From NCBI RefSeq assembly GCF_003992675.1, contig NZ_RZMZ01000007.1, positions 310,001 to 374,000 on the forward strand: a stretch of 64,000 nt of DNA, given 5' to 3'. Under the pieces are notes generated by a model that did no database searches, was not told the origin of the DNA, and saw nothing but the letters and a program-made list of their open reading frames with translations. Position 1 is the stretch's first letter; each line of letters opens with the position of its first letter. Of the stretch, positions 4,698 to 21,555 are shown one piece after another. The position numbers and the translations under genes are program-made. This DNA is from Flagellimonas marinaquae. GTDB taxonomy: Bacteria; Bacteroidota; Bacteroidia; Flavobacteriales; Flavobacteriaceae.

Positions 4698-5845
4698 AGC
4701 AGAACACCGTAATTCCCTATGGTCGTCAATTAATAGATGAAACAGATATCCGGTCTGTTATTGAGACCTTAACCTCTGATTATTTAACGCAAGGCCCGAA
4801 AGTAGCAGAATTCGAAGAAAAATTTTCGAAATATGTAGGGTCAAAATATGCGGTTGCTGTAAGTAACGCAACAGCAGGATTGCATTTGGCTGTCATGGCG
4901 ATGAATCTTAAGCCAGGAGAACGCGTCATCACTACTCCAATTACTTTTGCCGCCACTGCGAACTGTGTGAGGTATGTCAAAGGAGAAGTCTGGTTCGCGG
5001 ATATCGACCCCGACACCTATTTAATTTCCTATGAAAAAACCAAGGATCTTATTGAAAGTAAACCCAAAGGATTTTTCAAGGGAATTATTCCTGTCGATTT
5101 TGCAGGATTGCCAGTAAATTTGGAGAAGTTCAAAGAACTGGCAAAGGAGCATGATTTATGGATAATTGAAGATGCTTGCCATGCGCCGGGGGCCCATTTT
5201 ACAGATTCAAATGGAGAAAAGCAACACTGTGGAAATGGTAATTACGCGGATATTAGCGTTTTTTCATTTCATCCAGTAAAACATATTGCATGTGGCGAGG
5301 GAGGTATGCTGACCACAAACAATGAGGAGTTGTATAAAAAAATGATGTTTTTAAGAACCCATGGAATTTCAAAGGAAAATATGCTTGAAAATCATGGGGG
5401 GTGGTATTACGAGATGCAAGAACTTGGGTATAACTATAGACTTACAGATATTCAATCAGCCCTTGGAATTACGCAACTAGAGAAGAATGATTTAGGAGTG
5501 TTAAAGAGAAATGAAATAGCCGAAAAATATAAAGCAGCGTTCAAGGGAAAAATCAAATATCAATCACTGTCGAAAGGAGATTTGAACGCCCATCACCTTT
5601 TTGTTATAGAAGTTGAGAATAGGAAAGGCTTATATGATTTCTTAAAAAAGAACAACATTTTTGCTCAAATCCATTATATCCCTGTGCATACCTTGCCCTA
5701 TTATAAGAGAATAGGTTATGAGAATGCAGATTTAAACAACGCACTTAAATATTATGGCAGCTGTATCAGTTTGCCAATGTATCCCTCTTTAAAGGATAGT
5801 GAACAGGATTTTGTGATAGAAAAAACGCTAGAGTTTAATGAATAA
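4694..5845 (+). CDS. pseC: UDP-4-amino-4,6-dideoxy-L-AltNAc transaminase
   Basis: PLP-dependent DegT/DnrJ/EryC1-family aminotransferase, second pseudaminic acid step. The start at 4694 overlaps the pseB stop (ATGA) and gives 383 aa, the usual length; the longer in-frame extension lies inside pseB. The phosphate-contacting Asp160 is in WIIEDACHAPGA and the Schiff-base lysine is Lys196 in SFHPVKHIACGEGG, the hallmark of PseC. The gene overlaps pseF by eight bases. Confidence 0.95.
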   Translation: MKQNTVIPYGRQLIDETDIRSVIETLTSDYLTQGPKVAEFEEKFSKYVGSKYAVAVSNATAGLHLAVMAMNLKPGERVITTPITFAATANCVRYVKGEVWFADIDPDTYLISYEKTKDLIESKPKGFFKGIIPVDFAGLPVNLEKFKELAKEHDLWIIEDACHAPGAHFTDSNGEKQHCGNGNYADISVFSFHPVKHIACGEGGMLTTNNEELYKKMMFLRTHGISKENMLENHGGWYYEMQELGYNYRLTDIQSALGITQLEKNDLGVLKRNEIAEKYKAAFKGKIKYQSLSKGDLNAHHLFVIEVENRKGLYDFLKKNNIFAQIHYIPVHTLPYYKRIGYENADLNNALKYYGSCISLPMYPSLKDSEQDFVIEKTLEFNE

Positions 5846-6515
5846 TTTGGCAATCATACCGGCAAGGGGAGGCAGTAAAAGGATTCCGAGAAAAAATTTA
5901 AAACATTTTTTGGGGAAGCCAATAATTGCCTATTCAATTGAATTGGCAATTAAGAGCAATCTCTTCACAGAAGTGATGGTTTCCACTGATGACGAGGAAA
6001 TAGCTTCGATTGCTGAAGAATTTGGTGCAAGTGTCCCATTTTTAAGGTCAGCAAAGAATTCAGATGATTTTTCGACCCTCTCTGAGGTAGTCGATGAAGT
6101 GTTATCAAAGTATACCACAGATTTCGATTTTATTTGCTGTATTTTACCGACAGCACCACTAGCAAGTTTGGATGTATTGAATAAAGGGTTAAATGTGCTA
6201 CAGAAAAATCAATATGATTCGGTTAGGCCTGTCGTAGAATATTCCTACCCTATACAAAGAGCAATAAAAATTGACGCTGACAATAGGATGCACTTTTTCT
6301 TCCCTGAATATTATAAATCAAGATCACAGGATTTAGAACGTTCATATCATGATGCAGGACAATTTTATTGGATGACCAACAACCAAAGGCTGCATGGAGC
6401 GAAAAAGGGTGTTGTAGTCATTAATGGCAATCAGGCTCAGGATATTGATACAAATGAAGATTGGGAACTAGCGGAATTGAAGTACAAATTCAATCAGCAA
6501 AAGCAAAACCAGTAA
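5838..6515 (+). CDS. pseF: CMP-pseudaminic acid cytidylyltransferase
   Basis: Activates pseudaminic acid with CTP for glycosyl transfer. The 225-aa protein opens with IIPARGGSKRIPRKNLK, the nucleotide-binding P-loop-like motif of CMP-nonulosonate synthetases, and contains STDDEEIASIAEEFGA and ILPTAPLAS. Assignment to PseF rather than NeuA rests on the surrounding pseB, pseC, pseG and pseI. It overlaps pseC by eight bases, so the operon is translationally coupled. Confidence 0.92.
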   Translation: MNNLAIIPARGGSKRIPRKNLKHFLGKPIIAYSIELAIKSNLFTEVMVSTDDEEIASIAEEFGASVPFLRSAKNSDDFSTLSEVVDEVLSKYTTDFDFICCILPTAPLASLDVLNKGLNVLQKNQYDSVRPVVEYSYPIQRAIKIDADNRMHFFFPEYYKSRSQDLERSYHDAGQFYWMTNNQRLHGAKKGVVVINGNQAQDIDTNEDWELAELKYKFNQQKQNQ

Positions 6516-6542
6516 TATAGATTACAAATAGAAGTTGGCCCC

Positions 6543-7361
6543 ATGCAAACGTTTTTCTTTATACCGGCAAATAGGATAGACAAGCTGCTCCGAATTAGAG
6601 AAAAAGGGGTTACTGAGATTATAATTGACTTAGAAGACGCTGTTAAAGATTCTGAAAAAGCGGGTTTATTGGAGCAGATTCTAAAATATCCCAAGGAGGA
6701 TATCCGAAAATGCTTTTTCAGAATCCCAATAATAGATTCGAAGGGGTGTTTTGATTTTGAAATATTTGATAGGTTACTTGAAAATGGCTTTACCCGTTTT
6801 GTGTTTCCAAAAATGGCAGGCTTTAAAGATTTTGAAGCTTGTTTAAAAAGAACAAAATTAAAACTGGAGGTTATTCTACTTGTTGAGACCCCCAGATTAT
6901 ATATTGAATGCTTTACACAGCTTTCTATTTATCATCAACAAATATATGGATTGGCCCTGGGAAGCCATGATTTTATAGCCGCCATACAAGCAAAGCATAC
7001 ACTACAAAATCTAGAGGTTTTGAGGCAACAAATTTTGTATTTTTCTAGAGCGTATGACATTATATCAATCGATATCGCATCAATGTACATTAAGGATGAA
7101 GAAAACTTTAGAGAAGAATTGATGGATGGATTTGACAAGGGCTATGATGGAAAGTTTATTATTCATCCAAATCAATTGGAAATCGTCAACAAAACAAAGT
7201 TTTACAGTGAAAATGATTATACGTGGGCATTGAACGTGCAAGAGAAATTAAATGAACGAGGAGGGGAGAATGAATTTGACCCTATCTTGATAGACAATCA
7301 GGTGGTGGAAAAACCCCATATAAAACTTGCAAAAAGAATAATTAATGAATTCAGACGATAA
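6543..7361 (+). CDS. CitE/HpcH-type CoA-ester lyase homologue (first copy)
   Basis: HpcH/HpaI aldolase-citrate lyase beta family (TIM barrel, Mg-dependent C-C lyase or thioesterase acting on 3-hydroxyacyl-CoA such as malyl- or citramalyl-CoA). Seen: FFIPANR at the N-terminus, IIDLEDAV (Asp29, Glu31, Asp32), Arg60 in FFRIP, metal ligand Glu115 in LLVETPR, and Asp143 in GSHDF. All expected acidic residues are in place, so it is probably active. At 272 aa it is near family length. It lies inside the pse operon with a MaoC hydratase and a second CitE homologue, which is unusual; I infer a role in making a hydroxyacyl group for the sugar. True substrate unknown. Confidence 0.8.
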   Translation: MQTFFFIPANRIDKLLRIREKGVTEIIIDLEDAVKDSEKAGLLEQILKYPKEDIRKCFFRIPIIDSKGCFDFEIFDRLLENGFTRFVFPKMAGFKDFEACLKRTKLKLEVILLVETPRLYIECFTQLSIYHQQIYGLALGSHDFIAAIQAKHTLQNLEVLRQQILYFSRAYDIISIDIASMYIKDEENFREELMDGFDKGYDGKFIIHPNQLEIVNKTKFYSENDYTWALNVQEKLNERGGENEFDPILIDNQVVEKPHIKLAKRIINEFRR

Positions 7362-7362
7362 C

Positions 7363-7821
7363 ATGTCTACGACACAATTTGGAAGATACTTTGAGGATTT
7401 CATTATAGGCGAAGAGATTTTGCACCAAGGATCCAAAACTATTTTTGAAAGCGACAATAATTTTTTCAGTCTGCTGACGATGAATCATCATCCAGTACAC
7501 ATTAACTTGGACTATGCCGAACAAAAGCAGCACAGGCAGCTACTTGTGGTAGGCACATTAGTTTTTAGCTTAGTTGTTGGAATAACCGTTCCTGACATAA
7601 GTGGAAAGGCTATTGCCAATTTAGAATATGAAGAAATTAAACACTTACACCCAGTTTTTATAAATGACACCCTCTATGCCAGAACTAAAATACTAGCCAA
7701 GAGAGAGTCTAAGTCTAAAATTGATAGAGGCATAGTTCATGTCGAAACAATTGCATACAATCAACATAAACAGAATGTTCTCAGTTTTAAAAGAAAAGTT
7801 TTAGTCCCTAAAAAAACCTAA
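7363..7821 (+). CDS. MaoC-like hydratase (mesaconyl-CoA hydratase type)
   Basis: Single hot-dog-fold MaoC domain, about 152 aa from the ATG at 7363, chosen because MSTTQFGRYFEDFIIGE matches the family N-terminus. An in-frame ATG at 7345 would overlap the previous gene by 17 bases. The motif LLTMNHHPVHINLDYA corresponds to the MaoC D-x-N-P-x-H box in the TMNxHPxH form that I associate with mesaconyl-CoA hydratases. Hydration of mesaconyl- or crotonyl-type CoA esters would give hydroxyacyl-CoA, the substrate class of the two flanking lyase homologues. The three genes look like a functional unit. Confidence 0.8.
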   Translation: MSTTQFGRYFEDFIIGEEILHQGSKTIFESDNNFFSLLTMNHHPVHINLDYAEQKQHRQLLVVGTLVFSLVVGITVPDISGKAIANLEYEEIKHLHPVFINDTLYARTKILAKRESKSKIDRGIVHVETIAYNQHKQNVLSFKRKVLVPKKT

Positions 7822-7831
7822 GTAGAACTTT

Positions 7832-8719
7832 ATGAAAGATGTTTTAATGAGGAGCTTAATGTTTGTTCCCGCCCATAGTGAAAAGCTCATGCAAAGCGCT
7901 ATCAAGGTAGACGCCGACATATTGCTTCTTGATATTGAAGACTCAGTTCAGCCAGTGGCAAATAAACAAGTCGCCAGAGATAAGATTATAGAGTACTTGA
8001 AAAACGGGAAGTTCAAAGGGCGGACAATTTTCCCTAGAATTAATGACAGAGAAAGTGGCCAATTACTAAAGGACGTTAGTCAATTGACAATACCGGGTAT
8101 TACAGGTTTTATGTATCCGAAAGCGAAAAGAGGAGAGGATATATATTTTTTTGACAAACTCTTGGAGACAATAGAATTCGAAAAGGGATATGAGATAGGA
8201 TCTTTTAAAATTATAGCGTTGATTGAAACGGCCTCGGCGGTAATGAATGTTCAGGAAATTTGTGCAGCTTCAGATAGAGTAGTAGCCATAGCTTTTGGTT
8301 CTGAAGACTTTATAACGGACTTGGAAGGAATACATGACCAAGAGCATCTTAGTCTTTTTAGCCCAAGGGCAATGATTGCGATGGGGGCCAGAGCGCAAAA
8401 TGTGATTCCAATAGACACTGTACATGTTAGGGTCAAAGACCTTGAAGATTTAGAAAAAAACCTTCAATTGTCTGTTAAATTAGGTTTTGAAGGAATGCTG
8501 GTTTTAAATCCCATCGAGATTCCTCTTGTGCATAAATATTATTCCCCATCAAAGGAGGAAGTAGAACATTCCAAAGAGATATTAATTTCAGATCAGCTAG
8601 CGAGAAAAGAAGGTATAGGGGTCGCAATAATCAACGGTAAGTTTATTGGCCCTCCATTTGTGGCCAAAGCAAATAAAATTCTTGAAAAGGATAAGTTGAT
8701 TCAAAGAAAAAAGCAATGA
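7832..8719 (+). CDS. CitE/HpcH-type CoA-ester lyase homologue (second copy)
   Basis: A second member of the citrate lyase beta/malyl-CoA lyase family (295 aa). It has the classic RSLMFVPA start (residues 7-14), LLLDIEDSV (Asp34, Glu36, Asp37), FPRIND with the substrate Arg, ALIETASAVMN with the metal Glu, and FGSEDFITDL. It is clearly diverged from the copy at 6543 and closer to textbook CitE, so the two are probably not redundant. Its stop overlaps the start of the acyltransferase gene by four bases (ATGA), tying the CoA cassette to sugar acylation. Confidence 0.82.
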   Translation: MKDVLMRSLMFVPAHSEKLMQSAIKVDADILLLDIEDSVQPVANKQVARDKIIEYLKNGKFKGRTIFPRINDRESGQLLKDVSQLTIPGITGFMYPKAKRGEDIYFFDKLLETIEFEKGYEIGSFKIIALIETASAVMNVQEICAASDRVVAIAFGSEDFITDLEGIHDQEHLSLFSPRAMIAMGARAQNVIPIDTVHVRVKDLEDLEKNLQLSVKLGFEGMLVLNPIEIPLVHKYYSPSKEEVEHSKEILISDQLARKEGIGVAIINGKFIGPPFVAKANKILEKDKLIQRKKQ

Positions 8720-9372
8720 AAAAGATTATAATTATTGGAGGATATGGTAATGGAACTGTGGCCTTGTCAACAATTGAAGATATCAATAAAAGGGACAAGA
8801 CATGGGAAGTCTTGGGGTTTTTAAACGATAATGAAACGGAACCTATTAACGGCTATCCAATTATTGGTAAAATAAACAAAACCGTTGTCCAAAAATATAT
8901 TGAACAACCGGACATATATTTTTTCTACTCGTTGATTTCCGTTAAACTTAATTTTAAGTTTCTTTCAAAACTTCATGAACTTGAAATTCCTAAAGAGAGA
9001 TTTGCCACACTGGTACACCCAACAGCGGTTATTTCCAAATTTAGCAAGATAGGATACGGCACCTGTATTCAACCTTTCGTATCAATTGGCCCAAATACTG
9101 AGATAGGTAATCATGTTCAAATTTTTGCCCAATCTCTAATTGGTCATGGAGCAAAACTGAATGATTACAGTTACGTTGCCAATAATGCTTGTATTGGTGC
9201 AGATGTGGTTTTAAAAGAGGGGGCCTATTTAGGCACTAATGCAACTACATTAGAGTTTGTATCATTAGGCAAATGGTCTGTGACAGGAATTGGGGCGGTA
9301 GTATTGAAAGATGTACCAGATTATGCTAAAATGGTAGGAAATCCGGCCAGACAAATTGGAACAGTGAATTAA
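8716..9372 (+). CDS. PglD/NeuD-type sugar O/N-acyltransferase
   Basis: The N-terminal half is the Rossmann-like PglD_N domain (IIIIGGYGNGT at the start); the C-terminal half is a left-handed beta helix of hexapeptide repeats, ending in the usual MVGNPARQIG. The likely catalytic base is His144 in LIGHGAKLND, at the position of the PglD active-site His. Members transfer acetyl or other acyl groups from acyl-CoA to amino-sugars. No GNAT-type PseH is present in the locus, so this enzyme may do the N4-acylation between PseC and PseG, perhaps with a donor made by the lyase/hydratase cassette just upstream. That donor is inference. Confidence 0.85.
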   Translation: MKKIIIIGGYGNGTVALSTIEDINKRDKTWEVLGFLNDNETEPINGYPIIGKINKTVVQKYIEQPDIYFFYSLISVKLNFKFLSKLHELEIPKERFATLVHPTAVISKFSKIGYGTCIQPFVSIGPNTEIGNHVQIFAQSLIGHGAKLNDYSYVANNACIGADVVLKEGAYLGTNATTLEFVSLGKWSVTGIGAVVLKDVPDYAKMVGNPARQIGTVN

Positions 9373-9378
9373 TTTAGA

Positions 9379-10389
9379 ATGATAGGAGGCAAGAGGTTAC
9401 TTTTTAGAGTAGATGCAGGAGAACAGATAGGCCTAGGACATTTTTTTAGAAGTTATCATTTAGCTAAGGCTTTAAGAAGTAAGGGTTTTTACGTAGCTTT
9501 TGTTCACACAGAATCCGTGTTCTGGGGTCAATTGCCAAGTTTTGAGTTTGAACATTACAATCTGAAAATAGGCAAAGAAGAGGATCAAACCGTTGAAATA
9601 TGTATTGGCGGCAACTTTGATCTTCTGTATGTAGACGCAATATGTTCCTTTAGTGAGGAAAAACTGAAAAAAGTTAAACCAAGGACGAAAGTTGTTTTCT
9701 ATCAAAATTTAACCGAATCGAGGTTTTTATCAGACATTTTCATTTTACCATCAATTCACCAAAACGACTCTTTTTTTGAAGGTTTTATTAAGAGTGGAAC
9801 AAAAGTATATCAGGGTCTTGAGTATTCGATTTTAAACGAAAGGGTGAACGGGGTCAAAAAATCAGGTAAGAATTATGGTCTAAAAGTCAATGAAGTTGGT
9901 ATAATTAGCGGCGGAAGTGACCCCAAAAATGTGTTGGAGGCAGTATATAATTTGCTGGATTTTGATAGATGGCAAGAAATAAATTTTGTTTTTTATTTCG
10001 GAAAGAATTATCTGCACCACGGGAGTATTCCATCTTATTTACCAAATAATGTTAGCCTTAAGGAGTTTGATTTTGATAAAGTAATTGAATCAGATGTGGT
10101 AATAGCTGCTTTTGGAGTAAGTACCTATGAGTTGATGAGTATAGGAATGCCAGTAATCAGCATTGGTCACCAGAAATCGAACACTATCGCCTCGGACTTT
10201 CTAGCCAATAGAACAGGTGCACTTTACCACCTTGGACTAATAGACAACATAAATGAAGGTCAGCTCAATCACGCAATAGATACACTCTTGGATGTGGACT
10301 TTAGAGAAAAACTAGGAAATAGGGCAAAAGAAATAGTTGACCATAAAGGAGTGAGCAGAGTAATAAAAATAATTGAAGAAACATTATGA
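9379..10389 (+). CDS. pseG: UDP-2,4-diacylamido-trideoxy-altrose hydrolase
   Basis: Removes UDP from the diacylated altrose nucleotide, giving the free sugar used by PseI. The GT-B-like fold starts with FRVDAGEQIGLGHFFRS; Asp12 and the GLGHxxR motif with catalytic His21 are the PseG signature. The C-terminal half has IISGGSDPKN and VVIAAFGVSTYELMSIGMPVI, typical of MurG-like hydrolases. The protein is 336 aa. It follows the acyltransferase by six bases and overlaps pseI by four (ATGA). Confidence 0.88.
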   Translation: MIGGKRLLFRVDAGEQIGLGHFFRSYHLAKALRSKGFYVAFVHTESVFWGQLPSFEFEHYNLKIGKEEDQTVEICIGGNFDLLYVDAICSFSEEKLKKVKPRTKVVFYQNLTESRFLSDIFILPSIHQNDSFFEGFIKSGTKVYQGLEYSILNERVNGVKKSGKNYGLKVNEVGIISGGSDPKNVLEAVYNLLDFDRWQEINFVFYFGKNYLHHGSIPSYLPNNVSLKEFDFDKVIESDVVIAAFGVSTYELMSIGMPVISIGHQKSNTIASDFLANRTGALYHLGLIDNINEGQLNHAIDTLLDVDFREKLGNRAKEIVDHKGVSRVIKIIEETL

Positions 10390-11402
10390 ATAAAGAGACT
10401 GAAAACGGCGTGTTCATAATCGCTGAACTTTCCGCAAACCACAATAATGATTTGGATCTCGCAGTCAGGACCATTGAAGCGGCCGCAAAATCAGGTGCAG
10501 ATGCTATAAAAGTTCAGACCTACACGGCAGATTCATTAACCCTAAATGTAAACAATGATATTTTTGGGCCCAGAAAGGATGGCTTATGGAAAGGAAGAAC
10601 GTTATATGAACTTTTTACTGAGGGTAGTTTGCCGTACGAGTGGCATCCCGTCCTGAAAGAAAAGACGGAAGAACTGGGGATGATATTTTTTTCTTCACCT
10701 TTTGATAAAGCAGGGGTTGATTTTTTGGAATCTTTGGACGTTCAGCTCTATAAAATTGCCTCCCCGGAAATTACCGACATTCCACTTATCGAATACGTTG
10801 CATCTAAGAACAAACCGGTTATCATTTCTACCGGAATGGCATCGTTGGCCGATATAGAACTTGCTGTTAACACTTGTCGCAAAATGGGGAACGAAGATAT
10901 TACCCTTTTAAAATGCACCTCAGAGTATCCTGCTGTTCCTGACATGGCTAACCTAAAGACCATTCCAAACCTAAAAACCACATTCAATGTTAAAGTAGGC
11001 CTCTCGGATCATACAATGGGAGCAACGGTTCCCATTGTTTCGGTTGCATTGGGAGCAAGGGTTATTGAGAAACATTTCATAATGGATAGAGGATTGGGAG
11101 GTGTTGACTCGGCGTTTTCAATGAATCCAGATGAGTTCAAGGAAATGGTTAGTGCCGTAAGGGATGCGGAAAAATGCCTGGGAGAGATAGACTATTCCTT
11201 GACCGAAAGAAATAAGTTAAGAAGAAGGTCCTTGTTCCTGTCCAAGGATGTAAAGGCCGGGGACCTAGTCACAGAGGAAAATCTTCGCTCTGTAAGACCA
11301 GGTTATGGACTTCACCCTAAGTACTTAAATGATGTATTAGGCAGGAAGCTAAACAATTCATACAATGCGGGTACTGCATTAACATGGGCAATGCTTTGTT
11401 AA
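10386..11402 (+). CDS. pseI: Pseudaminic acid synthase
   Basis: Condenses the trideoxy-altrose derivative with phosphoenolpyruvate to make pseudaminic acid. The NeuB TIM barrel shows IIAELSANHNNDLDLA, DAIKVQTYTADSLTL, KIASPEITDIPLI, LLKCTSEYPA and GLSDHTMG, with the acid-base His in VIEKHFIMD. A SAF (antifreeze-like) domain covers roughly residues 275-338. At 338 aa it is slightly shorter than usual. It overlaps the flippase gene by 19 bases. Confidence 0.95.
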   Translation: MNKETENGVFIIAELSANHNNDLDLAVRTIEAAAKSGADAIKVQTYTADSLTLNVNNDIFGPRKDGLWKGRTLYELFTEGSLPYEWHPVLKEKTEELGMIFFSSPFDKAGVDFLESLDVQLYKIASPEITDIPLIEYVASKNKPVIISTGMASLADIELAVNTCRKMGNEDITLLKCTSEYPAVPDMANLKTIPNLKTTFNVKVGLSDHTMGATVPIVSVALGARVIEKHFIMDRGLGGVDSAFSMNPDEFKEMVSAVRDAEKCLGEIDYSLTERNKLRRRSLFLSKDVKAGDLVTEENLRSVRPGYGLHPKYLNDVLGRKLNNSYNAGTALTWAMLC

Positions 11403-12640
11403 ATAAAGATTTATATAACAAGTTACTTACGGTTTCATGCAGATTGTTGGGCCTAGGCTCTCGATTTTTGCTGACATTTTTGTTGACCAAGGAGATATCT
11501 CTTGAATTTCAAGGGGAGTATACCCTGGTCAGTACTTCTGTGGCGTTGATGATAATTCTGTTTGGCTTCGATTTTTATGTATACGCAAATAGGTTGTTGA
11601 TAAAGCAAAAAAAAAGAGAGGTGTTCTTTTTTAAAAACTCCTTGGTTTTTTACTCTTTTTCGTACTTGCTGTTGTTTCCTTTTATTTGGTTTACAACTAA
11701 TAATTTTGATGTAATTGATATTGGGTCGTTTTGGACACTTTATTTTTTAATAATTTTTGAACACCTTGGTCAAGAATTGTTCAGGTCTTATATAGCGATG
11801 AGGAAGCCACTATTTGCCAATTTATTATTGCTTCTAAGAACGGGTAGTTGGTCAGGAATCATAGTTTTTGCTCTTTTTTTTATCCAAGGTTTCCAAATAA
11901 GCATACCTGAAATACTAAGATTATGGTTGTTTTTTGCTTTTGTAACGTGTGTTTTGGGTATTTCGTTTTATCCTAATATAAAGTCTTTTGCACGGGAGAA
12001 AATTGATTTTAAGTGGATTAGAAAAGGAATTGGGGTTGGCCTAACAATGTTCATGTCAACAATCTGTTTAAAAGTTATAGAGTATTCCGACCGGTATTTA
12101 ATTGCCTTTTTTCTTGATAAAACTGAATTGGGGATATACGCACTCTATTTTCAGTTGGCTAACCTCATTAATGTTATCATTTTTACAATGTATATTTCTT
12201 TCATTTATCCGGATATAATTCAGGGAGTACATGAAAAAAGCAGGGATATCACATTAAAGGCAATGAAAAATATTCAAAAAAAAACATTTTTTATCATAAT
12301 CTTGTATGCGATTTCGTCAATTGTTTTAATACCGCTTTTCTTAAAATATATAGGTCGGAGCGAATTGTATCCCAACATACCTATATTTTACATATTGCTT
12401 ACAGCTTTTCTATTTTTAAACCTTAACTTTTCATACCATTTTGTTATTGTGGGTTTTGAGAAGGAAGCCCTAATTTTCAAAGCGACTTTTTTAGCCTGTG
12501 TGTTTAATATTTTATTGAATACCCTTCTAATTCCTTTTTTTGGAATTTATGGTGCAGCTTTTGCACTATTGGCTGGAAATTTTGTTCTTTTTCTTGTTAA
12601 GAGAAAATATGGCAAAAACCTTATGGGTCAATGGAGGTAG
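11384..12640 (+). CDS. wzx: Wzx-like polysaccharide flippase
   Basis: A 418-aa protein made almost entirely of hydrophobic segments with short basic loops, in the pattern of the MATE-like MVF/PST flippases that move undecaprenyl-PP-linked repeat units across the inner membrane. The first helix region (LLTVSCRLLGLGSRFLLTFLL) and the late FGIYGAAFALLAGNFVLF segment fit this family. The coding sequence is visibly more AT-rich than the rhamnose and ps genes. It overlaps pseI upstream by 19 bases and the glycosyltransferase downstream by 10 bases. Confidence 0.82.
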   Translation: MGNALLNKDLYNKLLTVSCRLLGLGSRFLLTFLLTKEISLEFQGEYTLVSTSVALMIILFGFDFYVYANRLLIKQKKREVFFFKNSLVFYSFSYLLLFPFIWFTTNNFDVIDIGSFWTLYFLIIFEHLGQELFRSYIAMRKPLFANLLLLLRTGSWSGIIVFALFFIQGFQISIPEILRLWLFFAFVTCVLGISFYPNIKSFAREKIDFKWIRKGIGVGLTMFMSTICLKVIEYSDRYLIAFFLDKTELGIYALYFQLANLINVIIFTMYISFIYPDIIQGVHEKSRDITLKAMKNIQKKTFFIIILYAISSIVLIPLFLKYIGRSELYPNIPIFYILLTAFLFLNLNFSYHFVIVGFEKEALIFKATFLACVFNILLNTLLIPFFGIYGAAFALLAGNFVLFLVKRKYGKNLMGQWR

Positions 12641-13659
12641 AAAACATTGTAATAGTGCTTACACCCTTTCAAAAATACATGATAGGGTCTGTTGATAAGA
12701 ACCTCTTTGACTTAGAAACAACCTTGGTCTTTCATAGTAAACATGTTTCATTTGAAAATTGTAATTGCAAAACGGAGAGAATTAACGTTTTCGAGTTCTC
12801 CAAAAGAAGGTTGTTTAGATTGGACCTGAGCTATTTTAAAGAGGCAAAGCGTGCCATTCAAAGAATTCGAGGTGAGATAACAGAATATCAAACACAGTAC
12901 TCATTAACAAATGGGCTCAATGTTTTCATAGGAAGTGAAAAAGATGTTTTTTCCCAAATGTTGCTGGCCACACCCTCAGTGAGCGTTAAAATATCGAATC
13001 TGATTGCGGTGGAAGAGGGTATTGGATATTATAAAACAGGCAGGACATTTAATACACAACTGACAAAGCTTGCTTACAAATTGCTTACGCCGATTCTATT
13101 TGGCGAAAGGATAGATTACGTGTATACTTTGGGTCGGGACCCTAGAATAAACATTGTTTACGCAAGAATGCCGAAACTGTTGCCAAAGAAAAGAAAGGAT
13201 GTAGAGTATCTGCAGATTCTGGGCCCCTCGAGAAAAAGCAAAGGGGTTTATTCTGACTCCACGAAAAAAATTCTTATTTACTCGTTCCCGAGTGAGGATT
13301 ATGGTATGAAGGACGATGAAAAAAAGAATATATTTAAAATCTTAATCAACGCCTTCCCACAAAAGCAAATCGTTATAAAGCCACACCCTAGGGAGAATGT
13401 TGATTTGTTTAACAATGAAATCAGGAATAACAATGTTACCTTGCTGGATAAGAGATTCATTGGAGAGGGAATTGATTATTTTGAATTTGAGAAAATCATA
13501 AACTTCTCATCCTCAATAGTTATCGATATTTTAATGGCAGGGTATCCTAAAGAGGAGATATACACTATATTTTTTGATAAGAGCCCTAAAATTTCCTTTT
13601 TAAGGGAAACCAAGTGCTTAAAGTTGGCTAACTTAAATATGAAGAATTTTGAAGATTAA
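12631..13659 (+). CDS. Sialyltransferase-like glycosyltransferase, candidate pseudaminyltransferase
   Basis: I recognise three motifs in the order and spacing of bacterial poly/sialyltransferases (GT38/GT52-like GT-B enzymes): an acidic EEG (residues 128-130, in LIAVEEGIGYY), an HP motif (His252-Pro253, in IVIKPHPRE) and a serine-rich SSS motif (293-295). In those families His is the general acid and the motifs bind CMP-sugar. As the locus makes CMP-pseudaminic acid, the natural inference is a pseudaminyltransferase. Family identity is from motifs only. The 342-aa protein has no membrane segment and sits between the flippase and polymerase genes, overlapping both. Confidence 0.65.
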   Translation: MEVENIVIVLTPFQKYMIGSVDKNLFDLETTLVFHSKHVSFENCNCKTERINVFEFSKRRLFRLDLSYFKEAKRAIQRIRGEITEYQTQYSLTNGLNVFIGSEKDVFSQMLLATPSVSVKISNLIAVEEGIGYYKTGRTFNTQLTKLAYKLLTPILFGERIDYVYTLGRDPRINIVYARMPKLLPKKRKDVEYLQILGPSRKSKGVYSDSTKKILIYSFPSEDYGMKDDEKKNIFKILINAFPQKQIVIKPHPRENVDLFNNEIRNNNVTLLDKRFIGEGIDYFEFEKIINFSSSIVIDILMAGYPKEEIYTIFFDKSPKISFLRETKCLKLANLNMKNFED

Positions 13660-14782
13660 GTTTGGGAATAGACTTTTACTGTCATCAATTTTAGGTTATC
13701 CGGTTCTTTTAGGAGCAATCTTTTTTTTTGACCTTGAACCGTTCCGAGTTACTGCTCCATATTTCTTTATAATCCTGGTGTTTCTGTCTATTAAAGCTAT
13801 GAAGCAGAAGAAATTGATGGTTTCACAGCAAGATTTACCTAACCTTCTGCTCATCTTACTAGTGCTTTTGGTTTCAGCAGCGAATTTTAGCACGGTACGC
13901 TATAGTATTCCAATCTTATTTGCAACATATTCATTCTTTCTTTTTTTGTATTTAACTATCATAGAATCCGGGTTTATTCTCAAAAGCAAAATAGTAAGAA
14001 GGTATTTGGTTATTTACTTGGTAATGTCCGTAATGTTTCTTTTTGTTAACCATGCTTATATGGAAGTTGGGGAAAGATACATTGGTTTTACTGGATCCCC
14101 CACAACTTTTTCAGGCCTTTTAGTAGCCCTTTTTATATTATTTGACACGTTGTCCGACCAAAAGAGATGGATAAGGATATTAGTGTTTCTTTTTGTATTT
14201 CTTTTCGTAGCATTGTCAAAAACAAGGTTGGTAATGATTTTTTTGATCGGGTACCCTTTTTTGACCTATTTTATAAATAAGAAAGCCCTAAACAAGGGAG
14301 GTGTTTTTATGGTTTTCTTCTTAACGTTGTTTTTTGTTTATTATTTGTATGGCTTGGTTGTGGAGAAGTACCCTGAGATAATTACATTACGCTACAAAGA
14401 TGCAAGGGATGCCTCCTTTGGACTTAGATATAGGCTTTATGAAATTGTTGAAGAAAACTTTATTTCTGGAAATAAATGGGAGATATTATTTGGCAAAGGA
14501 AATGAATATTCTAGGAATTTAATTATCGAAGAAATTGGATTGGATATATTCCCTCACAATGATTTTATTCGATTAATCAATGATTGGGGTGTTGTTGGTG
14601 GGGGAGCTTTTTTTGTTTTGCTTTACAGGCTTTCACTTAAAAACATAACTTCGCTTTTAATTGCACTGCTCTATATTGTTTTGTGGTATTCAAATATGAT
14701 TTTCAATTTATACTTGTTCTCCATCTTGATTATATCATCTTTTCACCTTGAAAACAGGGGTAGCCCTAGGTTAAATAAATAA
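13649..14782 (+). CDS. O-antigen polymerase-like membrane protein (Wzy candidate)
   Basis: About ten hydrophobic segments and one larger extracytoplasmic loop near residues 240-300 (with SFGLRYRLYEIVEEN and PHNDFIRLINDWGVVGG) give the topology of Wzy polymerases. The loop's F/L-H-N-D motif is typical of the Wzy/WaaL superfamily. There is no ATG at the 5' end: the TTG at 13649 keeps the first membrane helix and overlaps the previous gene by 11 bases; the next ATG would remove that helix. Likely polymerises repeat units flipped by Wzx. Confidence 0.7.
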   Translation: MKIKFGNRLLLSSILGYPVLLGAIFFFDLEPFRVTAPYFFIILVFLSIKAMKQKKLMVSQQDLPNLLLILLVLLVSAANFSTVRYSIPILFATYSFFLFLYLTIIESGFILKSKIVRRYLVIYLVMSVMFLFVNHAYMEVGERYIGFTGSPTTFSGLLVALFILFDTLSDQKRWIRILVFLFVFLFVALSKTRLVMIFLIGYPFLTYFINKKALNKGGVFMVFFLTLFFVYYLYGLVVEKYPEIITLRYKDARDASFGLRYRLYEIVEENFISGNKWEILFGKGNEYSRNLIIEEIGLDIFPHNDFIRLINDWGVVGGGAFFVLLYRLSLKNITSLLIALLYIVLWYSNMIFNLYLFSILIISSFHLENRGSPRLNK

Positions 14783-14789
14783 GCTTTTG

Positions 14790-16034
14790 ATGTCTAATTC
14801 AACGCGTATATTTAAATTTAATTTAAAACCACATCTTGAAAAGAATGCGTTGGCTTTTTCAATTTATTTGTTTGCGTTTTCTTTTTGTTTAACACCATTT
14901 TTTTCTTCCATATCCTTGCTTCTATTTTCAGTAACTTCTCTGTTTTACCTTAAAATGAAATTGCCTAAAAGCAATGATCTATTATTTCTACTATCCTACG
15001 CCTTTATTTTTTTGATGTATTTGGCTGGAATTTTTTTCACAGATTTTCAAGATAGGGCATTAGAGTTGATTATAAGGACTTCACCAATCTTATTTGTTCC
15101 ATTTTTTCTTTTGTTTACAAAGGCTCCTACGAAAATCAATTATTATAAATTAAAGCTTTGCTTTATTTTAGGGGTGTTTGTTTCATGTCTTATCTCGATT
15201 ATTTATGCTGTATTTAGGGTTTTACGAGACGGTGACTTACAACATATTTTATATTTCGAGTTTGCAGGAGTTTTAGATTTACATCCTTTATATTATTCAA
15301 TTTATATCATTACAGCCCTTGTGTTTCTCAATAAAATTGTGGTAAAAACTTTCTACAAGGCTTTTGGATATCTTGTTTTTGGGATCTCCCTTCTTTTGTT
15401 ACAATCTAAACTGGGAATTTTAATATTAGTTTTTGTGTTGGGACACTTCGTTTATATAAGCGTCAAAAGAAAGCACTATACGTATCTATTTGTTGCTCTC
15501 ATATCCCTTTCTTTCATCTTTTTTTCTGCTTTTGCGTTTGATGGTAATCGACTGAATGAACTTTTTTCAAGCAGGGAAAGAAATGAGCTCGGTACAAGCA
15601 GGGAAGATGGAGTTACCCAAAGAATATGGCTTTGGGAAACAGCTATTAAACAATTACAGGAAAATCCCTTATTCGGCTTTGGTCTGGGTTCAAAAAAGGA
15701 TATGTTTAAGTGGAAGGTTGAGAAAGACATTTTGATGAATAATTACGATTGGCCAACCATTAGGGCCATGAAGTTGATTTCAACCTGGAACCTGCACAAC
15801 AACTATTTGCAGATATGTTATGAATTTGGAGTATTAGGGTTAATCTGCTTTTTAACATCCATTTTGGTATGCATTAGACTGGCTAGGTTGAGGTCAAAGC
15901 CGTTATTTTTATCGGTTTACACCTTGATATTGGCACTTCTTTTTGTTGAAGTTGCACTGAATAGACAAATGGGAATATATTTTTATGCTTTCATACCCCC
16001 ACTGCTATTTTGGGAACCTAATACAAGGCAATGA
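14790..16034 (+). CDS. O-antigen ligase/polymerase family membrane protein
   Basis: A 414-aa multi-pass protein with the Wzy_C/WaaL-type periplasmic loop: GVTQRIWLWETAIKQL, NPLFGFGLG and then STWNLHNNYLQICYEFGVLGL, where LHNNYL is the conserved histidine motif. The ATG at 14790 is preferred over an adjoining TTG. With the Wzy candidate immediately upstream, one of the two is probably the polymerase and this one the ligase (or a second polymerase). It overlaps the lipoprotein gene by four bases. Confidence 0.75.
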   Translation: MSNSTRIFKFNLKPHLEKNALAFSIYLFAFSFCLTPFFSSISLLLFSVTSLFYLKMKLPKSNDLLFLLSYAFIFLMYLAGIFFTDFQDRALELIIRTSPILFVPFFLLFTKAPTKINYYKLKLCFILGVFVSCLISIIYAVFRVLRDGDLQHILYFEFAGVLDLHPLYYSIYIITALVFLNKIVVKTFYKAFGYLVFGISLLLLQSKLGILILVFVLGHFVYISVKRKHYTYLFVALISLSFIFFSAFAFDGNRLNELFSSRERNELGTSREDGVTQRIWLWETAIKQLQENPLFGFGLGSKKDMFKWKVEKDILMNNYDWPTIRAMKLISTWNLHNNYLQICYEFGVLGLICFLTSILVCIRLARLRSKPLFLSVYTLILALLFVEVALNRQMGIYFYAFIPPLLFWEPNTRQ

Positions 16035-16930
16035 GCAAATATCATTTTTTAGTTGTTTTAGTATATCTATTTCTTTCTTGCCAAAGTTCTGAAAAGAAAG
16101 GTGGGGTAAACTATCAAGTTGCTCAGGCTAAACTTGACGAAGCCTTTGTCAATGGATATTTTGAAAAGGTCAGGGACGAAACTTATGTATTAATCAACAC
16201 AAACTCGATATATTATTTTTTTAAGGAAAGAAAGGAGTTTCTTCGTTACAAAGTAATGTTGCACTTGATTAAAAAGGACAATACGTTTGATAATGAAGAT
16301 TTCTTTCCAAAGCAGGAAAAAATATCCACGTTAACAAAAATAGGGCTCGGTGATTTTGATACAATTTCCATAAAGATTGAAAGTAAGGGCTTTGTTGGTG
16401 TAAGGACGGGCCAATTCAGAAGGACTGAAAGTGGTTCAGCCAAAAACCTATGGGCTAAACAAATTCGATATTCGGAAATTAACACTAAAAGCAATAATGC
16501 CGCCAAAGAAAAATTCTTGAAGACCACTGGATTGAACAGTCTTAAAAACTATTTTGCTAAAAGACTCTTTGAAGGAACATTTTATAAAAACTCATTTGGA
16601 TTTTATGTTTTATTGGCAGATAATGAATTGTTTCTAATAACAAAAAATCAAGTAGCTTCTAAGAATAAGATTATGGTTCATCTAGTTAAGGAAAATGGTG
16701 ATTTTGATAACCTCTCTGCACTTTTTGGCAGTAAAAGGTATTGTAAATGCGTTACCATGGAAAAAGAAGAACTCATCGTTTACAGGGTTGTACTCCCAGA
16801 ATTGGAATCTTTCGAAAAATTAAGATTAGGAGAGTTTAACAATAACGGAAATAAATGGGTACAAGAACTTTACCTTAATGAATTTCTTTCCAATAAGTTA
16901 CTTCGCTACAGTAATGAATTTAATCTATAA
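16031..16930 (+). CDS. Lipoprotein with internally duplicated domain
   Basis: A short hydrophobic leader ends in a lipobox (LFLSC, Cys17), so the mature protein is probably a lipoprotein. I recognise no family. Two segments resemble each other: one near residues 48-115 (YVLINTNSIYYFF, VMLHLIKKDNTFDNEDF, IGLGDFD) and one near 195-275 (YVLLADNELFLIT, IMVHLVKENGDFDNLSAL, LRLGEFN), suggesting tandem copies of one small beta-rich domain. It is translationally coupled to the ligase-like gene (ATGA overlap) and followed 2 bases later by the split WecG gene, so a role in polysaccharide attachment or export is plausible but unproven. Confidence 0.7.
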   Translation: MSKYHFLVVLVYLFLSCQSSEKKGGVNYQVAQAKLDEAFVNGYFEKVRDETYVLINTNSIYYFFKERKEFLRYKVMLHLIKKDNTFDNEDFFPKQEKISTLTKIGLGDFDTISIKIESKGFVGVRTGQFRRTESGSAKNLWAKQIRYSEINTKSNNAAKEKFLKTTGLNSLKNYFAKRLFEGTFYKNSFGFYVLLADNELFLITKNQVASKNKIMVHLVKENGDFDNLSALFGSKRYCKCVTMEKEELIVYRVVLPELESFEKLRLGEFNNNGNKWVQELYLNEFLSNKLLRYSNEFNL

Positions 16931-16932
16931 GA

Positions 16933-17532
16933 ATGATTAATCAGATTTTTCAAAAAATAACAGATAATATTCAATTTGAAAAGAGTTCTCAAATTGTTTC
17001 TTATGTTAATATTTATAACTATCAGGTTTTGCGAAAGACTCCGAAAATCGCTGAAAAAATTGATTTCTTCACCTTGGACGGTATTATGTTGTTGCTCTTT
17101 ATAAGAATATTTATGGGCAAAAAATATAAGCGTAAGGCCCCAGATTTTTCTTCCTATTTCAATGAATTTTTTGGTTATCTTGAAAAGGCGAACATAAAAG
17201 AGGTCTTTATAGGGGGCTCAGAAGACGATATGTCTTCTTTTATAAAGACCGTCAAGGAGAATTATCCTCAAATGAATATTGTTCATACCTATAATGGCTT
17301 TGACCTGATCGAAGAGCGAGTGATTAATGCACTTATTTCTAAAGAAGTTGATTGCACAATCGTTGGAATGGGAACCCCAAAACAAGAGTACTTTATTGTA
17401 AAGGCCACTGAAATTAAAGCATTTCCTATCGGACCTTGGACTGTTCTTGTGCGCCGATATTCTGGAGCATTCTGGTATTTGTACTGGTTTTTACCCTACA
17501 TTAGAGCGATTATTGGCTACAAAAATTTATAA
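16933..17532 (+). pseudogene. WecG/TagA-family glycosyltransferase, 5' part, split by insertion
   Basis: Residues 1-166 or so are a normal WecG/TagA/CpsF glycosyltransferase: an acidic DG motif in FFTLDGIMLL, FIGGSEDDMSSFIK and VGMGTPKQEYFIV. After about KATEIKAFPI (base 17430) the sequence stops resembling the family and reads into an unrelated hydrophobic tail ending at 17532. The missing C-terminal part of the same gene is found 1.08 kb downstream at 18512-18697. The ORF therefore encodes a truncated chimera that lacks the conserved C-terminal region and is probably inactive. Confidence 0.85.
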
Positions 17533-18511
17533 GTTTCCGCAACTTTTAGTGATGAATAATATTATACTCAGCATAAACTACTTTTCCACAACCATGAATC
17601 TAACTTTCTATAATTTTTTAGGGATTCGCACCCAAGCCCTAACTATTAATGAACTTAATCAACTCATTGATACAGCCGTTCAACAAAATCAAAAATGGAT
17701 TATTGCCAACCATAATCTACATAGTCTGTATTTATATCATCATCAACCAAAAATGCAGACTTTTTATACCCAAGCAGATTATACCCATATAGACGGTATG
17801 GCTTTGGTATTACTGGGGCAACGTTTAGGACTACCTCTGCAAAGAGAACATAGGGTTACTTATGCAGACTGGGTATGGCCGCTGATGGCTGAAGCAAAAG
17901 AGAAAAAATGGCGGATTTTTTACTTAGGTTCAAAACCAGGAGTAGCCGAAACAGGGGCAGAAATTCTCCGGGAGAAATTCCCCAATTTAGAAATAAAAAC
18001 CCATCATGGTTATATTGGTTCTAATACTGATAGTCTTGAAAATCAGTCAGTTTTGGCAGAAATTAAGGATTACCAACCACATATATTAATGGTGGGAATG
18101 GGTATGCCTAGACAAGAAAACTGGATTATTGACAACCTCGAACAAATTTCTACCAACGTAATTCTTCCTAGTGGTGCTTGTATAGATTATGTCGCTGGTG
18201 TAATACCTACACCTCCTCGCTGGATGGGGCGTTTAGGATTTGAATGGTTATACCGTTTATTGAGTGAACCTAAAAGACTTTGGAAACGTTATTTATTAGA
18301 ACCTTGGTTTATTCTTAGACTCTTTTTACCAGAATTTTTGACTAAGCAATTAAAAACTAATTAACTACATAAAAGTAGTTTGCAAAATTAGGAATATTCA
18401 GGAATAAAAAAATGCAAAAGCGGCTTGGTTTTTTAGCAGCAGCACCTCGAATTTCAACACATCCTGATGCAGAGATGTCTGTTCCTCGTTCTAGAATTTT
18501 AGGTATTATCT
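17431..18511 (+). other. Foreign DNA insert, probably of cyanobacterial origin
   Basis: Both flanks are halves of one flavobacterial-type WecG gene, so the boundaries are set to within roughly ten bases. The insert contains the last 33 codons of an unknown ORF in frame with the 5' half, a complete second WecG/TagA gene, and the first 33 or so codons of another glycosyltransferase-like gene (MQKRLGFLAAAPRIS). A tetramer TATC occurs at both edges (17427-17430 and 18507-18510). No transposase or long terminal repeats are visible, which suggests illegitimate recombination of a random genomic fragment. The cyanobacterial origin is my recollection of similar gene neighbours, not a search result. 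Confidence 0.7.
17594..18364 (+). CDS. WecG/TagA/CpsF-family glycosyltransferase, horizontally acquired
   Basis: Transfers a sugar from a UDP donor to an undecaprenyl-PP-linked acceptor in early repeat-unit assembly. I start it at the ATG at 17594 (256 aa, MNLTFYNFLGIRTQALT); the frame is open upstream but that stretch has no family similarity. Seen: IIANHNLHSLY, catalytic Asp67 in HIDGMALV, FYLGSKPGVAE, LMVGMGMPRQE, LPSGACIDYVAG, and an intact C-terminal appendage PPRWMGRLGFEWLYRL. Wording and codon choice differ from the native split homologue and resemble cyanobacterial TagA proteins. It may have replaced the function of the gene it disrupted. Confidence 0.88.
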   Translation: MNLTFYNFLGIRTQALTINELNQLIDTAVQQNQKWIIANHNLHSLYLYHHQPKMQTFYTQADYTHIDGMALVLLGQRLGLPLQREHRVTYADWVWPLMAEAKEKKWRIFYLGSKPGVAETGAEILREKFPNLEIKTHHGYIGSNTDSLENQSVLAEIKDYQPHILMVGMGMPRQENWIIDNLEQISTNVILPSGACIDYVAGVIPTPPRWMGRLGFEWLYRLLSEPKRLWKRYLLEPWFILRLFLPEFLTKQLKTN

Positions 18512-18534
18512 TTTTGTTGTGGAGCATTCATTAG
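18412..18534 (+). pseudogene. 5' fragment of a foreign glycosyltransferase-like gene
   Basis: A 40-codon ORF starting MQKRLGFLAAAPRISTHPDA. About the first 33 codons read like the N-terminus of a glycosyltransferase that I recall beside tagA in cyanobacteria. The last seven codons (FLLWSIH) come from the native WecG sequence read in the wrong frame, so the fragment ends at the insertion edge. Too short to work; it is a scar of the insertion. Confidence 0.6.
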
Positions 18535-18697
18535 TCAAACAGCAAACAAGGGGAAAGATTATTTTCCAGGGATTATTAACAGGCTCCACTTAAGGTGGGC
18601 TTATCGGATTTATAAAGAACCCAAACTGTTTAAAAGGTACTCAATAAATTATCCAATCGGGGTATTATTATTGCTTTTTGATAGGTGTTTTAGATAG
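18512..18697 (+). pseudogene. WecG/TagA-family glycosyltransferase, 3' part, split by insertion
   Basis: Read in the frame starting at 18512 this encodes FCCGAFISQTANKGKDYF, then NRLHLRWAYRIYKEPKLFKR, and a stop at 18695. That is the standard C-terminal region of Bacteroidota WecG/TagA enzymes (G-x-F-x-x-Q-T, L-R-W-x-Y-R-x-x-x-E-P). There is no start codon. It is the missing partner of the truncated gene at 16933. Confidence 0.85.
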
Positions 18698-18907
18698 GCA
18701 ACAGAGGGTTTGAATTATTTTTTGCCCCCGATTTCTTATCTAAACACTTTATGGCACACAGTCCTTACGTTTCTACAAAAGGAACTGGCCTAAGGGCTCA
18801 ATTGAATAAAAAGTGATAAAAGCGATTTAGAAGATTTCTTTACTTACTTTTGATTTTGCAATAAGAATGTGCCTTTTAAAAACAACGGCATTAAATAAAA
18901 ATCAGCA
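18698..18907 (+). other. Intergenic leader of the priming transferase
   Basis: I see no gene here. An exact Bacteroidota -7 box, TACTTTTG, lies at 18845-18852, but no TTG stands at the usual distance upstream. The stretch probably holds the promoter of the gene at 18908 now that the upstream gene is broken. Confidence 0.4.
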
Positions 18908-20257
18908 ATGTTTTTTAAGAAGAACGACTTTTCTAGTGTTATATATCTGATTTCTGTCTTTTTAGATCTGTTGGCGATTAATATTCTTGTATACTACTTT
19001 CCAATTTTGTTCAGGTTTCCATTGCTTTTTCATGGCTATATAACTTTCATGTGGTTTATTATTTCCTTTAAAAACAAATTTTATGTGATTTTTAGATTTA
19101 CGAAAGTCACTTACATATTGAAATTGTTATTCAGGCAATTCATTTTTTTCTTCTTGATATTGTATGCTTTTATCGGCTTTTTTAAACAACCTAATATAAG
19201 CAGGCTATATCTGGGAATCTTTTTTATATCTGTGTTTTTCTCAATTTTCGCGTTAAAATTATTGAATTACTACCTATTAATGCAATACAGGACAAAGGTA
19301 AAAGGAAGCATGAGGGATATTGTGGTAATTGGAAAGAATGGAATGACAGACCAATTAATTAATATGTTTGAAAAGCATGGAGAATATGGGTACAATGTGA
19401 TTAAACAATTCTCACCAAAATCAAAAACTTTTGACTTGAAAGAGTCGCTGAGGTTTATCAAAAAGGCGGAAATAGATGAAATTTATTGTTCTGTAAAAGA
19501 GTTGTCTAACTCAGACATAAGTAGATATGTTCAGTATGCTGACAACAACTTGATTAAGTTGAAATTTATACCGGATAACAGAGAAATTTTTACTAAAAAC
19601 TTAAAATTGGATTATTATGAATATTTTCCAATACTTTCTTTAAGGGAACTTCCATTGGATGACACCTTTAATAGATTTTCCAAAAGAGCTTTTGATTTAA
19701 TTTTTTCTTCTGTTATTATTATTTGCTTATTATCATGGTTAATGCCTATAATTGGAATCTTGATAAAACTTGACTCTAAAGGGCCGATTTATTTCAAACA
19801 GAATAGGCCAGGGTTTAAAGAAGAAGGGTTCGGTTGCTATAAATTCAGAACAATGGCAATTAACAATGAAACTGAGAAATCTGCAACAAGAAATGATCCC
19901 AGGGTAACAAGAGTTGGCAGCTTTTTAAGGAGGACAAGTATTGATGAATTGCCACAATTTGTAAATGTGTTGTTTGGACAAATGTCAGTAGTGGGACCGA
20001 GGCCTCATTTATGGAGACAGAACAAGGAGTATAATACCACAATTCAAAAATATATGCTCCGTCATTACGTCAAACCAGGAATAACGGGCTTGGCCCAAGC
20101 TAAAGGGTATAGAGGTGAAATTGAAAGGAACGAAGATATCGTTAACAGAACCAGATATGACTTTTTTTATATAGAGAACTGGTCTATGTTGCTGGATTTG
20201 AAAATTATATTTCAAACGGCAATAAACATCTTGAAAGGTGAAGAAAAAGCGTATTAA
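18908..20257 (+). CDS. WcaJ-type polyprenyl glycosylphosphotransferase
   Basis: Priming enzyme of polysaccharide assembly: transfers a sugar-1-phosphate onto undecaprenyl phosphate. The 449-aa protein has four N-terminal membrane segments, a cytoplasmic CoA-binding-like domain ([15 protein letters not shown]), then the bacterial sugar transferase domain from about residue 255 with its re-entrant helix. Hallmarks: [35 protein letters not shown] and [10 protein letters not shown]. It stands alone after the split WecG gene. Which sugar it loads cannot be told from the sequence. Confidence 0.93.
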
Positions 20258-20311
20258 AGCTGAAATATTGAATACTTGACGATAAAACTTTTATCCCGCG
20301 TTTGTAAAGAT

Positions 20312-20319
20312 TATGTTTG
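20312..20319 (+). promoter_or_regulatory. -7 promoter box upstream of UDP-xylose synthase gene
   Basis: TATGTTTG matches the Bacteroidota TAnnTTTG box 31 bases before the start codon. No clear -33 TTG is seen. Confidence 0.45.
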
Positions 20320-20350
20320 TAAAAGCAAGAACTTTATTCAATAAAGATAA

Positions 20351-21337
20351 ATGAAGAGAATTCTCATCACCGGTGCAGCAGGTTTTCTCGGCTCCCACCT
20401 TTGCGACCGATTTATTGCAGAGGGCTATGATGTTATCGCCATGGATAACCTAATTACTGGGGATCTCAAAAACATAGAACATCTGTTCCCTTTGGAACGA
20501 TTTACATTCTACAATCACGATGTCACCAACTTTGTCCATGTTCCCGGTAAACTGGATTATATTCTACATTTTGCTTCACCTGCAAGCCCTATCGATTATC
20601 TGAAGATACCCATTCAAACACTGAAAGTGGGAGCTTTGGGGACCCACAACTTATTGGGGCTTGCCAAAGAGAAGAATGCTCGTTTTATGATCGCTTCCAC
20701 CTCGGAAATATACGGAGATCCATTGGTACACCCACAAACGGAGGAATACTATGGCAATGTGAATACCATTGGCCCAAGGGGAGTGTACGATGAAGCCAAG
20801 CGCTTTCAGGAATCCATCACTATGGCATATCACCGTTTTCATGGGTTGGATACACGCATCGTACGTATCTTCAACACCTATGGCCCCAGAATGCGACTAA
20901 ACGATGGACGAGTGATTCCAGCTTTTATGGGACAGGCACTTCGCGGTGAAGACTTGACCGTTTTTGGTGATGGTTCACAGACACGCTCTTTCTGTTATGT
21001 AGATGATGAGATAGAGGGAATTTACCGTTTGCTCATGAGTGAATATACCCTACCCGTGAACATTGGGAACCCGAATGAGATTACCATTAAGGACTTCGCG
21101 GAAGAAATCATCAAACTAACCGGAACCGACCAAAAAATTGTATACAAACCTTTGCCCAAGGACGATCCCATGCAGCGCCAGCCCGATATTACCAAGGCCA
21201 AGGAGATTTTAGGATGGGAACCCAAAGTGGGACGCGAAGAAGGTATGCGAAAGACCTTCGAGTTCTTTAAAGGATTATCCAAAGAAGATTTGGAAAAAAC
21301 CGAGCACAGGGACTTTACCCATCACAACAAAAAGTAA
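20351..21337 (+). CDS. uxs: UDP-glucuronate decarboxylase (UDP-xylose synthase)
   Basis: NAD-dependent decarboxylation of UDP-glucuronate to UDP-xylose. An extended SDR protein of 328 aa with [36 protein letters not shown], the UXS-specific [10 protein letters not shown] (catalytic Tyr and Lys) and [15 protein letters not shown]. These residues set it apart from epimerases. It is the last sugar-nucleotide gene of the polysaccharide locus and has its own -7 box. Confidence 0.93.
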
Positions 21338-21340
21338 CTT

Positions 21341-21400
21341 TTATGTCATCTTGAAATAAGGAGCGGGGTGACGAAAGAGCAGTCTGTTGGGTTTTTTCTA
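21341..21400 (+). repeat. Degenerate dispersed repeat downstream of uxs
   Basis: The stretch TCATCTTGAAATAAGGAGCG and the following GGGTGACGAAAGAGCAGTCT resemble the TTTCGACATGAGGAACGAAG elements at 25.8 and 61.7 kb but are more decayed. The rest of the gap up to purD holds no gene that I can support. Confidence 0.4.
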
Positions 21401-21547
21401 AAATTTCCGGCATACCCTCTAAACGATGGCTACTCTCTAATAATGGCAAAGAGGTATACGTAACGTTCCCACCTGTGGCAGGCAGTCCTGTCAAGAAGCA
21501 GTCCAAGATCATCTGTAAATAACCCTTAAATTAAGTTTGAATTGCGT

Positions 21548-21555
21548 TATTTTTG
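21548..21555 (+). promoter_or_regulatory. -7 promoter box of purD
   Basis: TATTTTTG fits TAnnTTTG and lies 15 bases before the chosen purD start, implying a very short leader. Confidence 0.45.

Follow-up and report, generated by a model that had tools for sequence, protein, structure and literature searches.

In the 64,000-nucleotide stretch of Flagellimonas marinaquae DNA analysed here (the window), a complete gene of the WecG/TagA/CpsF glycosyltransferase family lies between two pieces of another gene of that family. The question raised by this locus is whether foreign DNA broke a native surface-glycan gene and put a working substitute in its place.

The split gene and its uninterrupted allele

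Pfam profile search showed three ORF segments matching PF03808 (168 positions) within 16933-18697. The central ORF matched positions 1-168 of 168 (E 4e-54), which is the complete domain, the native piece upstream matched positions 2-118 (E 3e-18), and the native piece downstream (18509-18694) matched positions 126-168 (E 3e-6). The features of the locus are listed in Table 1.

Table 1. Features of the interrupted locus, in window positions
Feature	Position	Strand	Remarks
Native WecG/TagA 5' piece	16933..17405	+	157 complete codons, in frame, end ...VGMGTPKQEYFIVKA
Cyanobacterial GT2-type gene tail	17406..17532	+	homology to G406, G281, Scytonema
Foreign WecG/TagA/CpsF-family glycosyltransferase, 256 aa, intact	17594..18364	+	PF03808, PDB 7mpk, cyanobacterial identity
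Cyanobacterial GT4-type gene, first 96 bp (MQKRLGFLAAAPRISTHPDAEMS...), cut at right junction	18412..18507	+	
Native WecG/TagA 3' piece with stop	18505..18697	+	open frame 18509-18697
Phosphoglycosyltransferase (Bac_transf + CoA_binding_3)	18908..20257	+	PF02397 E 9e-65

A genome of the same genus, G001, contained one uninterrupted WecG gene of 228 aa at the same place (L003 1501-2187). The window matched this relative at 82% nucleotide identity up to 17405 and at 79% from 18505, and 21 bp of G001 (L003 1974-1994) remained unmatched opposite an insert of 1,099-1,102 bp. The eight neighbour genes tested (11384 to 21553) stood in the same order in G001 with 74-96% amino acid identity, and the phosphoglycosyltransferase kept its place with 93%. 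At the DNA level the locus region was matched in 2 of the 71 genomes of the genus (this genome and G001), while the insert was found in 1 of the 71, this genome being counted among them.

An earlier sequence-only reading had placed two native WecG/TagA pieces around an intact, distant homologue and had proposed that related strains be searched for an uninterrupted allele. The arrangement was borne out by the three PF03808 matches and the G001 alignment, the allele was present at the syntenic place in G001, and the inserted gene was indeed distant, its product sharing 23% amino acid identity with the G001 native protein. The boundaries had to be moved. The native 5' piece runs only to 17405 (...FIVKA), not to about 17430, and the residues TEIKAFPI, which had been taken as native, belong together with what follows up to the stop at 17532 to the tail of a cyanobacterial gene. 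The 3' piece does continue the native gene, with the restart at 18505-18507 in place of 18512, and the insert, correctly called foreign, is longer than the 1.08 kb first given and also holds parts of two more cyanobacterial genes that had gone unmentioned. These are provisionally labelled GT2 type and GT4 type, the GT4 label not coming from a profile search. The GT2 tail continues the native frame and produces a hybrid ORF of 199 aa (16933-17532); it stops nine codons short of the conserved end seen in L005 and L054, perhaps through decay since the transfer, perhaps because the donor already had this stop.

The cluster upstream of the locus encodes NeuB, a cytidylyltransferase, a PolyST-like transferase, a flippase-like protein and two Wzy-like proteins (Pfam), and it likely makes a surface glycan of the nonulosonic-acid type. 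The probable nonulosonic-acid glycan genes occupy 4631-13656 (DegT aminotransferase, CTP_transf_3, NeuB, PolyST-like and flippase-like genes). Among them are two HpcH/HpaI-type aldolase genes and a MaoC-type dehydratase gene (6543-8719), which are unusual for a glycan locus, and a gene for a 336-aa protein (9379-10389) with no Pfam match at E 0.001. Two adjoining genes at 13649-16034 both match the Wzy_C / O-antigen ligase family, and one may be the polymerase and the other the ligase. The gene preceding WecG both here and in G001 (16031-16930) encodes a protein of 299 aa that matched nothing convincingly in Pfam and is 74% identical to its G001 counterpart.

Cyanobacterial origin of the insert

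By nucleotide identity, the insert is Nostocales cyanobacterial DNA. The cyanobacterium G406 matched 17407-18364 at 82%, G281 matched up to 18371 at 77%, Anabaena sp. UHCC 0187 matched 17452-18369 at 77%, and Scytonema hyalinum (L006) matched 18372-18507 at 87%, with the GT4 part reaching 91% in G400. At the left edge, homology started from 17407 in G406 and G281 and from 17411 in Scytonema. No single genome covered the whole insert, the G406 and G281 matches ending at 18364 and 18371 and the right-hand Scytonema match starting from 18372. In the order of Anabaena UHCC 0187 (388 genomes), 89 genomes matched the insert anywhere and 8 matched its last 146 bp. The GC content was not distinctive, with 36% in the insert vs 32% and 34% in the flanking native pieces.

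GT2 ORFs were seen in L005, L006 and L054. The GT4 gene stands before WecG in L006 and in the six genomes that matched GT4 strongly. In L005, G406 and G281, WecG comes after GT2 but is then followed by another gene. None of the seven strong cyanobacterial GT4 matches (L006 plus these six genomes; the comparison left out the two weakest matches, G191 and G339) showed the order GT2-WecG-GT4. Since this order was not found, the insert may combine two cyanobacterial pieces as a mosaic; otherwise its donor would be an unsampled cyanobacterium. The order of GT2, GT4 and WecG varied between lineages (L006, L057, L058, G400, G459, G479 and G487), so the cluster appears to be shuffled often. A perfect inverted repeat with 6-bp arms and a 6-bp loop (18363-18380) lies between the foreign WecG and the start of GT4, where homology switches between cyanobacterial groups.

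The foreign WecG protein demonstrated 85% amino acid identity to that of G406, the nearest cyanobacterium found, 84% to G281 and 80% to Anabaena sp. UHCC 0187. In a tree of 41 proteins (18 relatives' WecG loci taken; the below-cut-off matches in G005 and G063 and the two native pieces left out; the G001 native protein present twice; L030 and L031 partial; several relatives long-branched; group labels of the non-cyanobacterial rows assigned by us), the foreign WecG paired with G406 (97/86) inside the cyanobacterial set and apart from the relatives' 18 loci, with the G001 native protein on a separate long branch. The foreign gene contained no inner stop or frameshift. Its pN/pS was 0.17 to G406, 0.16 to G281 and 0.19 to Anabaena, similar to the values among those cyanobacterial relatives (0.15-0.19), and no relaxation was seen.

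The foreign enzyme and the native step

The foreign WecG aligned full-length with TagA of Thermoanaerobacter italicus (PDB 7mpk, E 1.3e-23). Counted by hand on this alignment, the equivalents of TagA Asn39, Asp65, Arg83, Gln167, Glu168, Arg214, Arg221 and Arg224 are identical in the foreign protein, and Thr37 corresponds to Asn. According to the passages of PMC6493773 from which the residue roles were taken, Asp65 is the catalytic base, Asn39, Arg83, Gln167 and Glu168 are pocket residues, TagA is inactive once its C-terminal appendage is missing, and the arginines of the appendage take part in catalysis. This appendage is present in the foreign protein and absent from the 199-aa native hybrid, the native 3' end lying apart at 18505-18697. 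Because the hybrid is without the appendage that TagA needs, it is probably dead.

The phosphoglycosyltransferase encoded downstream probably makes the lipid-linked first sugar. Of 7 cyanobacterial loci examined, 2 (L006 and L056) likewise have a gene for a related phosphoglycosyltransferase (32-33% identity) after WecG, and both WecG enzymes, the native and the foreign, would be expected to act right after the phosphoglycosyltransferase as the second sugar transferase. With only 23% identity between the two, the donor sugar and the acceptor may differ.

Functional replacement, as suggested in the sequence-only reading, is plausible. The features on which it leans stand: the foreign gene is intact, has the orientation of the operon, precedes the phosphoglycosyltransferase gene and keeps most of the catalytic residues; the replacement itself is putative. 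Most likely the foreign gene would be read from the host operon and its enzyme would stand in for the lost one by attaching the second sugar to the lipid-linked first; the glycan would then be kept or slightly changed. That the gene is expressed and also takes over the native step is, overall, possible but falls somewhat short of probable.

A possibility to be taken seriously is that the insertion is real and the insert a mere passenger, in which case the event inactivated the native gene, cost the cell its glycan or altered it, and left an insert that will degenerate. The WecG family is patchy, with a match in 20 of 98 relatives (18 above the cut-off) and none in the other 78, and its genes are dispensable in the group, which suits such a loss. 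The low identity of the foreign enzyme to the native one is also in keeping with it, as are the fragments of two other genes that came along, one with an early stop, much like a random piece of DNA. However, the foreign WecG is complete, without stop or frameshift, with its catalytic residues kept and in operon orientation, and it would be rare for a random fragment to bring an entire gene of the same family as the one it interrupts.

Joins, route of entry and comparison with known systems

At the left join, about 5 bp (AAAGG) are common to the native sequence and to the cyanobacterial G361, G453 and Scytonema, and at the right join about 3 bp are assignable to either side. Repeat searches produced no target-site duplication or terminal repeat at the joins, and the longest exact repeat between the two 45-bp join neighbourhoods was 6 bp, away from the edges. 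Rfam produced nothing in the window. An imperfect 14-nt inverted repeat with arms in the insert and in the native 3' piece (18337-18350 and 18526-18539) was taken as chance. Homology-driven integration was rejected, the native-insert DNA score of 27 comparing with a shuffle mean of 23.4 and being reached by 18 of 200 shuffles; the longest run common to the native gene and the insert was 10 bp, not at a join. No homologous anchor was visible at the insert ends, and an anchor in a longer, lost donor molecule would leave no trace. The genome contained no Ku gene, so classical end-joining is not available, and it contained DprA, which was also present in 11 of 14 control genomes and so carries little weight. 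The few shared bases at each join are compatible with a linear fragment having been joined in illegitimately, which would be a rare outcome of natural transformation or of break repair.

The two native pieces contained no inner stop or frameshift, and their dN/dS against G001 was 0.14 (5') and 0.10 (3'), with 0.01-0.21 in the eight neighbour genes. Since the pieces are undecayed, the break is either young relative to the split from G001 or an artefact of assembly. Such an artefact would be a co-sequenced cyanobacterial sequence of about 1.1 kb misplaced in the contig; cyanobacteria and bacteria of this kind often live together, and the undecayed halves, the confinement of the insert to one genome of 71 and an insert gene order matching no cyanobacterium found would all agree with it. 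Yet two false joins would be needed within 1.1 kb, deep inside a contig of 548,282 bp, in a genome of 3.42 Mb in 18 contigs that was estimated to be 99.94% complete and 0.33% contaminated. The contamination checks showed no phycobilisome gene in the genome and no match to the 13-kb G406 cluster region except the insert itself, and the window contained no Ns. The few bp of overlap at the joins and the 10-bp longest common run are too short for the usual assembler overlaps, and there is no reason to expect a false join to pair two genes of one family. A chimera is considered improbable, and it is very probable that the join is real in the cell.

A pattern-based scan of viral contigs gave 7 pattern matches, none of them a relative, and the best of 273 plasmid records matching the WecG family was a Nostoc sp. 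UHCC 0302 plasmid with a WecG 66.5% identical, so neither a phage vector nor a close plasmid vector was found. Arrival as cargo of a transposon or phage is hardly credible: the Nostoc plasmid shows that the gene travels on cyanobacterial replicons, but a mobile-element insertion was rejected for the lack of any transposase among the listed ORFs of the region and of terminal repeats or target duplication at the joins, the viral scan gave no relative, and the insert ends fall inside two genes.

In the preferred account, about 1.1 kb of Nostocales-type cyanobacterial DNA would recently have entered a surface-glycan operon at its native wecG/tagA-type gene. The route would have been illegitimate end-joining at short stretches common to both DNAs, and it would have cost the host gene about 21 bp. 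The native gene would thereby have been disrupted, and its position taken by a full-length cyanobacterial member of the family that reads in the same direction and lies just upstream of the phosphoglycosyltransferase gene. Together with the takeover of the second sugar transfer, the account as a whole is given an even chance of being right. The native gene makes up about 0.02% of the genome (687 bp in 3.42 Mb), and a complete WecG gene is seldom expected in 1.1 kb of cyanobacterial DNA taken at random. By a rough estimate of our own it is very unlikely, even with glycan loci favoured, that the broken and the inserted gene are of one family by chance, an estimate to be read with the caveat that the locus was picked for being striking. 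DNA similarity does not explain the coincidence, but it would follow if selection retained inserts that provide the missing step. It is tentatively proposed that one cross-phylum illegitimate insertion destroyed a glycan enzyme, supplied a working substitute and survived for that reason. Such a selective filter, if true, explains why a random captured fragment holds a gene of the family that was broken, and the locus would then show cross-phylum gene displacement at an early stage, with the debris still in place.

When a distant homologue displaces a gene in place, this is usually deduced from phylogenies, long afterwards. At this locus the interrupted native gene, both junctions, the scraps of donor neighbours and the intact substitute can still be seen, and a relative has the empty site. 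If the event is real, it becomes testable whether a glycosyltransferase from a foreign phylum can step into a surface-glycan pathway, and so does the anchor-free entry of such pieces of DNA. A literature search found no paper on horizontal gene transfer of WecG/TagA with cyanobacteria and none on WecG capsule gene replacement in the Bacteroid group.

Compared with T. italicus TagA, of the WecG/TagA/CpsF family (PF03808, GT26), the foreign protein has the same full-length domain, catalytic Asp and C-terminal arginines, and differs in the residue at Thr37 and in having a Bac_transf-type phosphoglycosyltransferase as its neighbour enzyme. Illegitimate integration in natural transformation, by homology-facilitated or double illegitimate recombination, shows the same short shared joins, small host loss and absence of a mobile-element signature, though 1.1 kb exceeds the short patches usually described for it. 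No homologous anchor, such as the homology-facilitated form has at one end, was found on either side here. The locus resembles xenologous gene displacement in situ, in that a distant, horizontally acquired homologue of foreign phylogeny stands at the gene's own place in the operon and the native homologue, intact in G001, is lost at the locus, here by being split. Unlike the usual cases of such displacement, both native pieces and the scraps of donor neighbours remain, which marks an early stage with a putative takeover.
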